DNA of 64,000 bases from Salinivibrio sp. ES.052. GTDB taxonomy: Bacteria; Pseudomonadota; Gammaproteobacteria; Enterobacterales; Vibrionaceae. Where the stretch lies: NCBI RefSeq assembly GCF_900141775.1, contig NZ_FSRI01000001.1:962251-1026250 (forward strand), given 5' to 3'. The notes beneath the pieces were generated by a model that did no database searches, was not told where the DNA came from, and saw only the letters and a program-made list of their open reading frames with translations. The first letter of the stretch is position 1. Every line of letters starts with the position of its first letter. Shown one piece after another: positions 12,683 through 15,985 of the stretch. Both the position numbers and the translations under genes were made by a program.

Positions 12683-12690
12683 GGGTAGGG
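12683..12690 (+). other. KOPS octamer pointing to dif
   Basis: GGGTAGGG on the + strand, left of dif. It is oriented so that FtsK loading here would translocate rightwards to dif. Confidence 0.55.
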
Positions 12691-12734
12691 GGTGTCTTTC
12701 AAGTGTGTGATAATTGAACAGGCAGCGGGTTAGT

Positions 12735-12747
12735 GTTACGCTGTCAC
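12735..12747. other. Near-matS site just upstream of matP
   Basis: GTTACGCTGTCAC differs from the matS consensus at one base (third position) and ends 26 bases before the matP ATG, where bound MatP could affect its own transcription. Confidence 0.45.
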
Positions 12748-12773
12748 TATTAGGCGTGACAGAAGCTTGGCAT

Positions 12774-13223
12774 ATGAAATATCAACAACTAGAAAATTTA
12801 GAAGCAGGTTGGAAATGGGCCTACTTAATTAAAAAATGGAAAGATGGTGACGCTGTCACTAAATACATTGATCGTGACGAGGCAAAAGCCGCTGTCGACA
12901 CACTGTTAAGCCTGGAGCATGAGCCTACGCGAGTGCATCAATGGATTGATAAGCACATGGCGCCTTCATTAGAGAAAAAACTGAAACAAGCGATTCGTGC
13001 CAAGCGAAAGCGCCATTTTAATGCCGAACAAGAGCAAACACGGAAAAAGTCCATCGATTTGGATTATCGCGTATGGGAAAAACTCTCGCAGAAAGCGCAT
13101 GAACTTGATGCCACTTTGTCCGATACCATTGAGTACTTGTTGTCAGAAGCTAATCGCTCGGAGAGCGCAAATAAACAAGTGAATACGCTAAGGCAAGATC
13201 TGAATAACTTGCTGGATATGTAA
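12774..13223 (+). CDS. matP: Macrodomain Ter protein MatP
   Basis: DNA-binding protein that recognises matS sites, condenses the Ter macrodomain and links it to the divisome. The 149 residues include an N-terminal MKYQQLENLEAGWKWAYLIK helix bundle, the conserved RKRHFNAEQEQTRKKSIDLD segment leading to a ribbon-helix-helix domain, and a C-terminal coiled coil (SANKQVNTLRQDLNNLL). The ATG at 12774 matches the family start; 20 upstream in-frame codons are not homologous. An exact matS site lies inside its own coding sequence, and dif is less than 500 bp downstream of its stop. Confidence 0.96.
   Translation: MKYQQLENLEAGWKWAYLIKKWKDGDAVTKYIDRDEAKAAVDTLLSLEHEPTRVHQWIDKHMAPSLEKKLKQAIRAKRKRHFNAEQEQTRKKSIDLDYRVWEKLSQKAHELDATLSDTIEYLLSEANRSESANKQVNTLRQDLNNLLDM
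12847..12859. other. matS site inside matP
   Basis: GTGACGCTGTCAC is an exact match to GTGACRNYGTCAC and encodes part of DGDAVTK of MatP. Confidence 0.9.
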
Positions 13224-13255
13224 AACCTTTTGACCGATAAGCGAGCACTGTAGTT

Positions 13256-13546
13256 ATGGGTTATTTTTTACTGATTTCTTTTGCCATTTTTCTCGCATTT
13301 ATGTTGATCGACCGACCATTATTGGTCATTGCATTTAAAGATGGTCAGTTAGTGCGTCACAAAGGAAAAGTCCCGAAAGGTTTTTTACACGATTGCCAAG
13401 AGATTGCTAAGCGCCATCCGTTCACGGGCACCGTGAAAGTATATAGTAATCGTTTTAAGCCTGCGAAAGTTGTGTTGTCGCGTAGCATCGACAACCGTAT
13501 TCAACAGCGCATAAAAAACGTGTTCCCACACCAGTCATTCAAATAA
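13256..13546 (+). CDS. DUF3634-type small membrane protein
   Basis: A 96-residue protein with one N-terminal membrane helix (about residues 2-22), then a basic soluble domain with the segments FKDGQLVRHKGKVP, FTGTVKVYSNRF and a C-terminal QQRIKNVFPHQ. I recognise it as the Vibrio family DUF3634, of unknown function. It starts 32 bp after matP on the same strand and probably shares its transcript. The next feature downstream is dif. Confidence 0.72.
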   Translation: MGYFLLISFAIFLAFMLIDRPLLVIAFKDGQLVRHKGKVPKGFLHDCQEIAKRHPFTGTVKVYSNRFKPAKVVLSRSIDNRIQQRIKNVFPHQSFK

Positions 13547-13864
13547 TGTCGGTTGCTCGGTCGACCACGATACCTATTGGCTAAGGCAGAAGTGCCATAC
13601 TGGCTTGGCCGACCCAATAAACGTCGATGTGGAATATGTTGGCTGCATGACCAAATGACCCAATAGTACTTATAGACACCAGTGCGCATTATATATATTA
13701 TGTTAAATTACGTGTTGGGCAGTAACAACGATAGCCTATTCTTTGCATTAGTTTGCGCAGTTGGGTTTGTGATTGAACGTAATTAGCTATTTACCATAAA
13801 ATAGCTAATTACTACTTCTTTTAATCGTCATTACCCCAACTCGTTTGGTCTAAGTCGATTTAAC
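13547..13864. other. Intergenic region carrying dif
   Basis: These 318 bp lie between the convergent ends of the DUF3634 gene and the hybrid kinase gene. The only functional element recognised is dif; the flanks are AT-rich with no repeats of phage or IS type, and there is no second dif copy. Confidence 0.8.
13681..13708. other. Chromosome dimer resolution site dif
   Basis: The 28-bp site has an 11-bp XerC arm AGTGCGCATTA (13681-13691), a 6-bp centre TATATA (13692-13697) and an 11-bp XerD arm TTATGTTAAAT (13698-13708). The XerD arm is the canonical gammaproteobacterial sequence, and the XerC arm matches V. cholerae dif1 as I recall it. XerCD recombination, activated by FtsK, resolves chromosome dimers here. 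Nearby matP, matS sites and inward KOPS support the call. It marks the replication terminus. Confidence 0.95.
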
Positions 13865-15985
13865 TCAGTGGTAATTAGTAGATAGATCGACAGGCTGATG
13901 TGTATAAAGCACAGCGTTAAGGCTCGCTGCGCGTATCGGCTTCGTTACAAAATCATCCATCCCTGCACGGACACAGCGCTGTCTGTCTTCGTCCATCGCA
14001 TTCGCAGTTAAAGCGATAATCGGTTTTTTAAAACCTGATGCACGAAGCGCTTTGGTTGCGGCGATGCCATCCATTACTGGCATCGACATGTCCATCAGTA
14101 CAAGATCAAATTCAGTATGTTTAACATTTTCGAGTGCTTCTTCGCCGTTTGAAGCTAACACAACCGTGTGGCCTTGTTTTTCAAGCATCAATCGCACAAC
14201 CATCTGATTAGCCCGACTGTCTTCCGCCACTAAAATTGACATAGGTTGCACAGTTTCTACTGATACAGGCGTCTGAGATTGATGTCTCTCGGCATCTTGA
14301 GGTGTGGCAACTATCGGCAGACGGACGTAAAAGTCGGTACCTTTATGAAGTTCGCTCTCTACTTCAATACTTCCACCCATCATTTCAACGAGTTTTTGAC
14401 AAATGGATAAGCCCAGGCCTGTGCCACCAAATCGGCGTGTAATACTGCCGTCAGCTTGGGTAAAAGGTTCGAAAATTCGTCCAATTTGATGCTCATCAAT
14501 ACCAATTCCCGAGTCATTAACCCTTAGCATGAGCACGTCGCCTTCCGTATAGAGTGACACTGTCACTCCGCCATAATCGGTGAATTTAAGGGCATTGGCT
14601 ACGAGGTTAAGCAAAACTTGCGTAAATCGATTTTCGTCCATAAAAAGTGTTTCAGGGACTGACGGTGAGACTGAGGCTGACAAATAAATACGTTTTTTAT
14701 CCGCTCTCTCAATTAACTGTTGATAGACGTTAGTGACACTGTCACTAGGTTTCATCAACGATGGAGAGAGAGAAAAACGGTTTGACTCGATTTTCGATAG
14801 ATCAAGCACATCGCTGATTAAGGTCAATAGGAGCTGAGCGGATTTATCCATTTGCCCTACCCACTCTTTTTGTTCTGTGCTTAACCTCGAATGCTGTAGT
14901 GCATCAATTAGCCCTAATACAGCGTTGAGTGGCGTCCGTATCTCGTGGCTCATTACTGCCAGAAACTGCGACTTTGCGTTATTCGCTAATTCAGCTTGCT
15001 GACGTGCTTGTTGCAGTTCCACAACGCGGCGTTTGGTCGCGGTTATATCTTTAGCCGTCCCGCGATAACCCGCTAATTCTCCCCGTTTGTTATAACAGGG
15101 CCTACCTGACAGGCTAACCCAGTAATCATGGGCGCGAGATGTTATATGCCACTCGATATCACTGAATGCTTGCTCGTGATCGATGAATTGCTCAAGTTTG
15201 GCTTTGAGTTGTGAGTCGGATTTGATTTTCGTGAGTAAGGCTTCTGCATCAATATCGGCATCCGTATTGGGTGATGACAGGTAAGTCAGTTGAAACTGAT
15301 TATCAAGCTCCCAAAACCAGTCACTGGCCGTTTGTGCAAAATCTTGGAAGCGCTGACGGCTAGCATTTAGTTCTTGGGTTCGGCTACTAACAAGTGTATG
15401 TAAGCGATGTCGATAGTCGATGTCCATAATGGTACGTTCGATCAATGGGCGAAAACGGTCAATCACCTGTTGCGCTTCATTATTAAACGAGTCACGTCGA
15501 TGTGAGAGTAATATCAGCATGACTTCGCTATCGTTTACCGTTAAACCGCTGATCAGGGCGGTTCCTTGTTGGTAACTGGCATATTGATGCGTTAGACAAT
15601 GGAGCTCTTTAACCATGTCTGGCTTATAAATGGCAACAGTCTCTCCTTTTACACAACGACGAAAAACGTCTCCCGTTTGCCATGTCACGTTCTCTAGCAG
15701 ACGGTCGGTGGAGACTAAACACCGAAAAGCATCTTCCGTTTCGCGATTGCGGCTGAGTGTCACGGCACTATCGAAATTAACGTAGCGGTGGATAACGTCG
15801 AGCAGCGACGCAAATATATCAGTCTTTGACGTCGCCTCAGCCATGGCAGAGATCGCCGACAAAATCGCATCATTCTCTTCTCTTAAGCGTTTTTCTCTTG
15901 CTTCAACACGACTGAGTTCAAATAAGGTTTCCTGTAGAGACTCAGCGTCTGAGCGTTCAGATGCCGATAGGCGTTTCGACGTCAT
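13865..15985 (-). CDS. vpsS: Hybrid sensor histidine kinase, VpsS-like
   Basis: Cytoplasmic hybrid kinase of 706 residues with no membrane helix: an N-terminal coiled coil and GAF-like domain (about 15-190), a PAS domain (about 210-320, containing SDWFWELDNQ), HisKA with the phospho-His in SHEIRTPLN (about 346), HATPase with GTGLGLSICQKLVEMMGG, and a C-terminal receiver with Asp in LVLMDMSMPVMDG (about 630). No Hpt domain is fused, so phosphate must pass to a separate one; in V. cholerae VpsS uses LuxU. It lies 2 bp downstream of the FIST gene and is probably controlled by it. Confidence 0.82.
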   Translation of the reverse strand: MTSKRLSASERSDAESLQETLFELSRVEAREKRLREENDAILSAISAMAEATSKTDIFASLLDVIHRYVNFDSAVTLSRNRETEDAFRCLVSTDRLLENVTWQTGDVFRRCVKGETVAIYKPDMVKELHCLTHQYASYQQGTALISGLTVNDSEVMLILLSHRRDSFNNEAQQVIDRFRPLIERTIMDIDYRHRLHTLVSSRTQELNASRQRFQDFAQTASDWFWELDNQFQLTYLSSPNTDADIDAEALLTKIKSDSQLKAKLEQFIDHEQAFSDIEWHITSRAHDYWVSLSGRPCYNKRGELAGYRGTAKDITATKRRVVELQQARQQAELANNAKSQFLAVMSHEIRTPLNAVLGLIDALQHSRLSTEQKEWVGQMDKSAQLLLTLISDVLDLSKIESNRFSLSPSLMKPSDSVTNVYQQLIERADKKRIYLSASVSPSVPETLFMDENRFTQVLLNLVANALKFTDYGGVTVSLYTEGDVLMLRVNDSGIGIDEHQIGRIFEPFTQADGSITRRFGGTGLGLSICQKLVEMMGGSIEVESELHKGTDFYVRLPIVATPQDAERHQSQTPVSVETVQPMSILVAEDSRANQMVVRLMLEKQGHTVVLASNGEEALENVKHTEFDLVLMDMSMPVMDGIAATKALRASGFKKPIIALTANAMDEDRQRCVRAGMDDFVTKPIRAASLNAVLYTHQPVDLSTNYH
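14554..14566. other. matS site in the hybrid kinase gene
   Basis: GTGACACTGTCAC is an exact consensus match. A second site lies 179 bp away. Confidence 0.9.
14733..14745. other. matS site in the hybrid kinase gene
   Basis: GTGACACTGTCAC again, an exact match and the second copy within 200 bp, about 1 kb from dif. Confidence 0.9.

Follow-up and report, generated by a model that had tools for sequence, protein, structure and literature searches.

Which sequence serves as the dimer-resolution site (dif) of the chromosome of Salinivibrio sp. ES.052 that carries matP, and is the 28-mer the only conserved sequence at that position? We examined a stretch of 64,000 nucleotides (G000:C6:962251-1026250, hereafter the window), in which an initial annotation had placed a dif site at 13681-13708. 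Our analysis confirms that this sequence is the dif of chromosome 1 (dif1) in a two-chromosome bacterium. It is very probably accompanied by a real, conserved companion element, a joint claim that does not extend to binding of XerD. Taken alone, dif1 is an ordinary chromosome dimer-resolution site. The features are listed in Table 1.

Table 1. Features around dif1 (window positions)
Feature	Position	Strand	Basis or remark
matP	12774..13223	+	Pfam MatP 1e-41, MatP_C 3.9e-27; likely start 12774
Nearest left GGGNAGGG, pointing at dif	12683..12690	+	Motif search
Exact matS-like site GTGACGCTGTCAC, inside matP	12847..12859	+	Motif search
dif1, 28 bp	13681..13708	+	Sequence; sole C6 match at ≤3 mismatches
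XerC arm AGTGCGCATTA	13681..13691	+	Sequence; arm assigned by comparison with E. coli dif
dif1 6-bp core TATATA	13692..13697	+	dif2 in the same genome has TGTATG
XerD arm TTATGTTAAAT	13698..13708	+	Identical to E. coli XerD arm
Companion element	13772..13813	+	14-bp inverted repeat at 13779-13812 in the window genome
Companion box 1 ATTGAACGTAA	13772..13782	+	Loosely like reversed XerD arm ATTTAACATAA
Companion box 2 ATTTACCATAA	13789..13799	+	10/11 like reversed XerD arm
Exact matS-like site	14554..14566	+	Motif search
Exact matS-like site	14733..14745	+	Motif search
Nearest right GGGNAGGG, pointing at dif	14855..14862	-	Motif search

The dif site of chromosome 1 and its surroundings

The site has the layout of a chromosomal dif, in which a 6-bp core separates an 11-bp XerC arm from an 11-bp XerD arm, and both the letters (AGTGCGCATTA-TATATA-TTATGTTAAAT) and the coordinates originally given for it are exact, as is the description of the XerD arm as canonical. 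The initial annotation proposed comparisons with the sites of E. coli and Vibrio cholerae. Agreement with E. coli dif is 25 of 28 bases, and with one version of V. cholerae dif1 it is 26 of 28; the runner-up 28-mers within the window reach 18 and 20 of 28, respectively, against these two references. V. cholerae dif1 as printed in PMC2731167, which has a T at position 7, agrees with the window site at 25 of 28 bases.

When the whole 3.57-Mb genome (six contigs) was searched with a dif pattern at up to 3 mismatches, two matches were found, on contigs C6 and C5, while the reversed pattern, used as a control over the same sequence, gave none. There is thus one dif per chromosome at this threshold, and a second, better dif on chromosome 1 was looked for on C6 and not found. 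The other site, dif2, is AGTGCGCATTA TGTATG TTATGTTAAAT at C5:666233-666260 on the minus strand. RctB is the initiator of chromosome 2 in Vibrionales. Because rctB and the second dif are on C5, and matP and the window dif are on C6, the window dif is that of chromosome 1; dnaA is on C4. From its 2.04 Mb and its gene content, we infer that C6 represents most of chromosome 1.

An array of three tandem 3,649-bp units (L033, G000:C5:666247-678120) lies on the XerC side of dif2 and reaches the contig end. It encodes a G2P/RstA-like replication protein, a phage single-strand DNA-binding protein, an HTH repressor, and a 218-aa protein, and in each copy a pair of inverted dif-like sites, spaced by about 126 bp, has XerC arms that are good and XerD arms that are poor. 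By its gene content and sites, L033 is a putative integrated satellite of filamentous phages, of the type that relies on XerC/XerD.

The neighborhood of dif1 is as the initial annotation described it: 457 bp separate the end of matP (13223) from dif1, where less than 500 bp had been claimed, and the site lies between converging genes, a DUF3634 gene ending at 13546 (+) and a hybrid histidine kinase gene ending at 13865 (-). The DUF3634 gene (13256-13546) stands between matP and dif1. The mechanical open reading frame of matP starts at 12714, upstream of the likely true start. Linkage of this kind was scorable in 117 of 150 family genomes, in which matP shares a contig with exactly one tabulated dif; among the matches listed, dif lies on the matP strand and downstream of the gene in all 117, with 0.6 to 48 kb between it and the MatP match (median, 4.7 kb). 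In ten genomes from other families that have matP and dif on one contig, the two are 21 kb to about 1 Mb apart, and dif is upstream of matP in two of these ten (G181 and G201). Tight matP-dif linkage therefore looks like a trait of the family Vibrionaceae and not a peculiarity of the window genome. A MatP match is also present in three family genomes with an absent or doubtful dif: among the matches listed, G021 and G050 have no dif-like match at 3 mismatches, and the sole match in G002 is doubtful.

GC skew, FtsK-orienting sequences (KOPS), and matS sites were scored over a 400-kb stretch around dif1. The initial annotation expected the extreme of the cumulative GC skew to fall at dif. A skew change is present in the region, but the maximum lies at C6:995281 (window position, about 33.0 kb), 19.35 kb to the right of dif1 (value of 6067 versus 5879 at dif1); at this distance within the 400-kb stretch, we count dif1 as near the shift point. 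The offset of 19 kb is within those printed for other gammaproteobacteria in PMC2731167, which include 20,231 and 24,027 bp. The octamer GGGNAGGG, proposed as the KOPS of V. cholerae (PMC2533119), occurs in forward orientation 10 times to the left and once to the right of dif1 and in reverse orientation 0 times to the left and 14 times to the right. The switch of polarity is confined to 2.2 kb that hold dif1 (C6:974933 to 977105; window, 12683 to 14855). Exact matches to the matS consensus number 14 within the 400 kb, and three of them are within 1.1 kb of dif1.

The position of the skew maximum would also agree with a reading in which a phage left 13681-13708 behind as a dif-like attachment site and chromosome 1 has its working dif elsewhere, e.g., near 33 kb of the window. 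We regard this as extremely improbable, since C6 has no other match at up to 3 mismatches, the KOPS switch brackets dif1 and not the skew maximum, and both flanks of dif1 can be aligned to the corresponding dif loci in seven congeners.

Homology with E. coli and V. cholerae gives strong reason to expect that XerCD and FtsK act at dif1. KOPS pointing from both sides would guide FtsK, which would activate XerD at the closing septum, and XerC and XerD would add a crossover at the site, so that a chromosome-1 dimer becomes monomers. The proximity of matP and matS would put dif1 inside a MatP-organized terminus. The initial annotation went too far in stating that dif fixes the replication terminus: according to PMC13342612, dif marks dimer resolution and does not set the end of replication, and V. 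cholerae is described as being without a fork trap (PMC6549158). The correct dif call nevertheless gives an anchor for the terminus of the Salinivibrio sp. ES.052 genome.

A companion element on the XerD side of dif

Comparison of the right flanks of dif1 and dif2 in the same genome revealed a short homology, mostly 60 to 150 bp from dif. This companion element is composed of two direct XerD-like boxes in reversed orientation, 80 bp past the XerD arm of dif1. The 12-mer ATTTACCATAAA is present with at most one mismatch in 79 of 84 loci (76 distinct sequences), a conservation that is partly by construction because the companion pattern was defined on these loci with up to one mismatch allowed in the 12-mer. 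It is preceded 16 to 17 bp upstream by a looser box, ATTnAAC..TAA, and followed by conserved RTAnnTAATnA. Within the window, the pattern at 3 mismatches gave two matches (0.01 expected), namely the companion itself (0 mismatches) and dif read backwards (3 mismatches). The combined dif-plus-companion pattern was matched exactly in four genome records, all of Salinivibrio.

The element was surveyed in 52 family genomes, 51 of which have dif, with 102 tabulated dif sites. At 86 of these sites, on both chromosomes, it shares the strand of dif and stands 48 to 181 bp past the XerD arm (median, 100 bp, 86 sites); it is displaced at 6 sites and absent by pattern at 10, although diverged copies exist in flanks scored as absent (chromosome 2 of G042, chromosome 1 of G102, and chromosome 2 of G079). 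Outside the genomes that defined the pattern, it was found at 36 of 48 sites (24 dif-bearing genomes). The pattern matched 112 times in the same 52 genomes versus 19 times for its reversed control. Eighteen of the 112 matches are not assigned to a chromosomal dif, including extra copies past insertions and one on contig C3 of G012. On that 332-kb third contig, a dif-like site has a companion 100 bp past its XerD arm (G012:C3:64618-64766), as if the two traveled together.

The best match to the reversed XerD arm reaches 10 of 11 bases in 79 of the 84 right flanks and at most 9 of 11 in 84 shuffled sequences and in 40 left flanks. Box 1 resembles the reversed arm at 8 or more of 11 positions in 75 of 79 loci, compared with about 6 percent of shuffled 22-mers. 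Nearly all Vibrionaceae loci have a C in box 2 where the reversed arm has an A, while on both chromosomes of G001 box 2 is the reversed arm at all 11 positions.

Outside the family, the companion was found at 5 of 5 sites in family f2 and 5 of 5 in family f12. Family f12 has the reversed arm ATTTAACATAA itself as box 2, and its box 1 departs from that arm by at most one change. By contrast, it was found at none of 30 sites of 17 other families, and thus it is not needed for dif in general; at two of these 30 sites a single arm-like match occurs, at distances of 396 and 527 bp, and 20 XerC-side stretches in other families have no arm-like match. Two sampled genomes of family f19, which we take to be near E. 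coli, have no companion, nor was one found at 2 of 2 sites of family f6. The Shewanella oneidensis dif printed in PMC2731167 fits f6, and an assignment of f2 to Shewanella was therefore rejected. In the portion of the published literature searched by the letters of the motif and for an XerD site beside dif, we did not find the companion element.

A non-recombining docking site for XerD is suggested by the two direct XerD-like boxes, which face the XerD arm of dif. Because the companion has no good XerC arm, XerD would bind there without recombining, and we put the chance of such binding at roughly even. Possible roles would be to stop or orient FtsK, to load XerD, or to unload condensin, as XerD does in Bacillus subtilis. 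If XerD does bind, the companion would represent a conserved part of the terminus that the view of dif as a bare 28-mer omits. Bases that the XerD arm does not explain are the C in box 2 and the conserved RTAnnTAATnA past it; both would fit a site for another conserved protein, a reading that we consider possible but less probable than XerD binding. It accounts poorly for the exact arm in f12 and on both G001 chromosomes and for the arm-like character of box 1, too.

A role of the companion solely as a bidirectional terminator of transcription from the converging genes is improbable, although the window itself would fit. Here, the element comprises a 14-bp inverted repeat followed by a T-rich tail (TACTTCTTTT), its AT-rich stem contains 3 G-C pairs, its folding energy is -17.7 kcal/mol (z of -7.1), and a terminator scan picks it up where 0.7 such sites are expected from shuffles of the scanned stretch; by eye, some other genera show hairpins just past box 2, so that a terminator may lie nearby. 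Yet box 2 is kept where the hairpin is not, as a perfect stem of at least 9 bp around it exists in only 13 of 79 loci and the copy beside dif2 on C5 has a stem of 4, and the orientation and distance from dif are the same on two chromosomes with different neighbor genes. Termination was thus rejected as a full account of the companion. Still less credible, indeed very unlikely, is an origin as a former phage attachment site. Phages do integrate at dif in Vibrionaceae, inverted dif-like sites are present in the tandem array next to dif2, and some genomes have extra companion copies past insertions; however, the attachment-like sites of the array have good XerC and poor XerD arms, which is the reverse of the companion, and the companion is kept family-wide on one side of dif on both chromosomes.

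Core sequences within and between genomes

The cores of dif1 and dif2, TATATA and TGTATG, differ, including beside the XerD arm; hence, Xer recombination should not readily fuse the two chromosomes. We tabulated cores at two sites per genome, hand-picked among the matches listed, in 138 of 150 family genomes, with chromosome 1 defined as the contig bearing matP. The other 12 genomes (G002, G003, G008, G021, G029, G041, G050, G066, G093, G115, G127, and G145) have no two clear sites, or three in the case of G008, among the matches listed. Among these matches, no genome of the 138 has identical cores at its two tabulated sites, and all 138 core pairs differ at position 5 or 6, beside the XerD arm; between genomes, 13,888 of 75,624 core comparisons are identical, with each genome pair counted both ways. 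Third and weaker dif-like matches are omitted from the table. Two such third sites, G089:C3:128717 and G052:C3:90650, each on a third contig and with 2 mismatches, share the core of their own chromosome-1 dif. Another genome, G026, has two dif sites on one contig (C38:98770 and 1510431) with the cores TGTATA and TGTATC, among the matches listed, which represents either a natural chromosome fusion or a misassembly.

The assignment of cores to chromosomes is reversed between congeners. Given as matP-chromosome core/other core, with the number of genomes one way and the other among the matches listed, the cases are TGTACC/TGTATA (6 and 16), CATAGA/TGTACA in genus g8 (1 and 5), TATATC/TGTATA in g10 (4 and 6), TCTATC/TGTATA (4 and 8) and the same pair in g3 (1 and 8), TGTACG/TGTATA (3 and 8), TATGTG/TGTATA (3 and 2), and TGTATC/TGTATA in g12 (1 and 2). 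We compared the flanks of 40 dif sites in 20 genomes. Where right flanks align over long distances, they do so between like chromosomes (1 with 1, 2 with 2) regardless of the core; group B gives the clearest case, with 5 genomes and both chromosomes represented. The picture in groups A and C is incomplete: for swapped genomes of group A, the right flank on chromosome 1 matched nothing, and in group C no alignment was obtained on chromosome 2 between the right flanks of genomes with and without the swap. Several of the 20 genomes have left flanks that match between chromosomes, which we read as probably due to shared inserted elements. Where alignable, the flanks are mostly unchanged despite the reversal of cores. 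An exchange of whole chromosome ends was therefore rejected, as right flanks track the chromosome, not the core, wherever they can be aligned.

There are two plausible explanations for the reversal. (i) Xer recombination between dif1 and dif2 would fuse the chromosomes and leave the 6-bp core as a heteroduplex, and a later crossover would re-separate them with the cores exchanged. This inferred mechanism predicts a local change. (ii) Alternatively, phages that integrate at dif may replace the core. Divergence of cores in multichromosome genomes is already published (PMC2533119), where it is read as a guard against fusion and where one exception is given, in a Burkholderia; a review (PMC4246890) asks about classical V. 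cholerae strains with a dif2-type sequence on both chromosomes. In the portion of the literature searched, the reversal between congeners was not found in print. Core exchange represents natural evidence on how the chromosomes of multipartite genomes stay apart and also bears on how often they may have joined through dif.

Tentatively, both observations can be combined, although we consider the combination rather doubtful as a whole: the Vibrionaceae dif may be a composite site with a tandem dock for XerD only, and the chromosomes may trade cores by Xer fusion and re-separation. Both chromosomes would then bear the same module of dif and companion, and the non-recombining dock would let XerD act in a second way, alike on both, by halting or orienting FtsK from one side or by removing condensin. 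Trading of cores would be repeated but rare, and the cores would have to remain unmatched beside the XerD arm.

Comparison with known systems

The arrangement in Salinivibrio sp. ES.052 resembles that described for V. cholerae dif1 and dif2 in PMC2533119 and PMC2731167, with one dif per chromosome, divergent cores, and a position in the terminus, and with FtsK that has GGGNAGGG as its proposed KOPS (PMC2533119). The V. cholerae dif1 core, TGTATG, is that of chromosome 2 in the window genome, whose dif1 core is TATATA. Excerpts of these two papers mention no companion element, and Carnoy and Roten termed the sequence past the 28-mer highly variable. The dif site of E. coli has the same length, the identical XerD arm, and the 25 of 28 bases noted above, but E. 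coli has a single chromosome, and the sampled f19 genomes (n = 2), presumably near E. coli, are without the companion.

The nearest likeness in terms of role is found in the XerD sites (XDS) of B. subtilis, which serve SMC unloading in the terminus (PMC10945525, citing Karaboja 2021). At an XDS, as proposed here for the companion, XerD is considered to act at a site in the terminus without recombination. The companion differs from XDS in that it is fixed beside dif as two direct boxes, and the two are likened by role, not by sequence. If this analogy holds, the corresponding reaction at the companion would involve the unloading of MukBEF.
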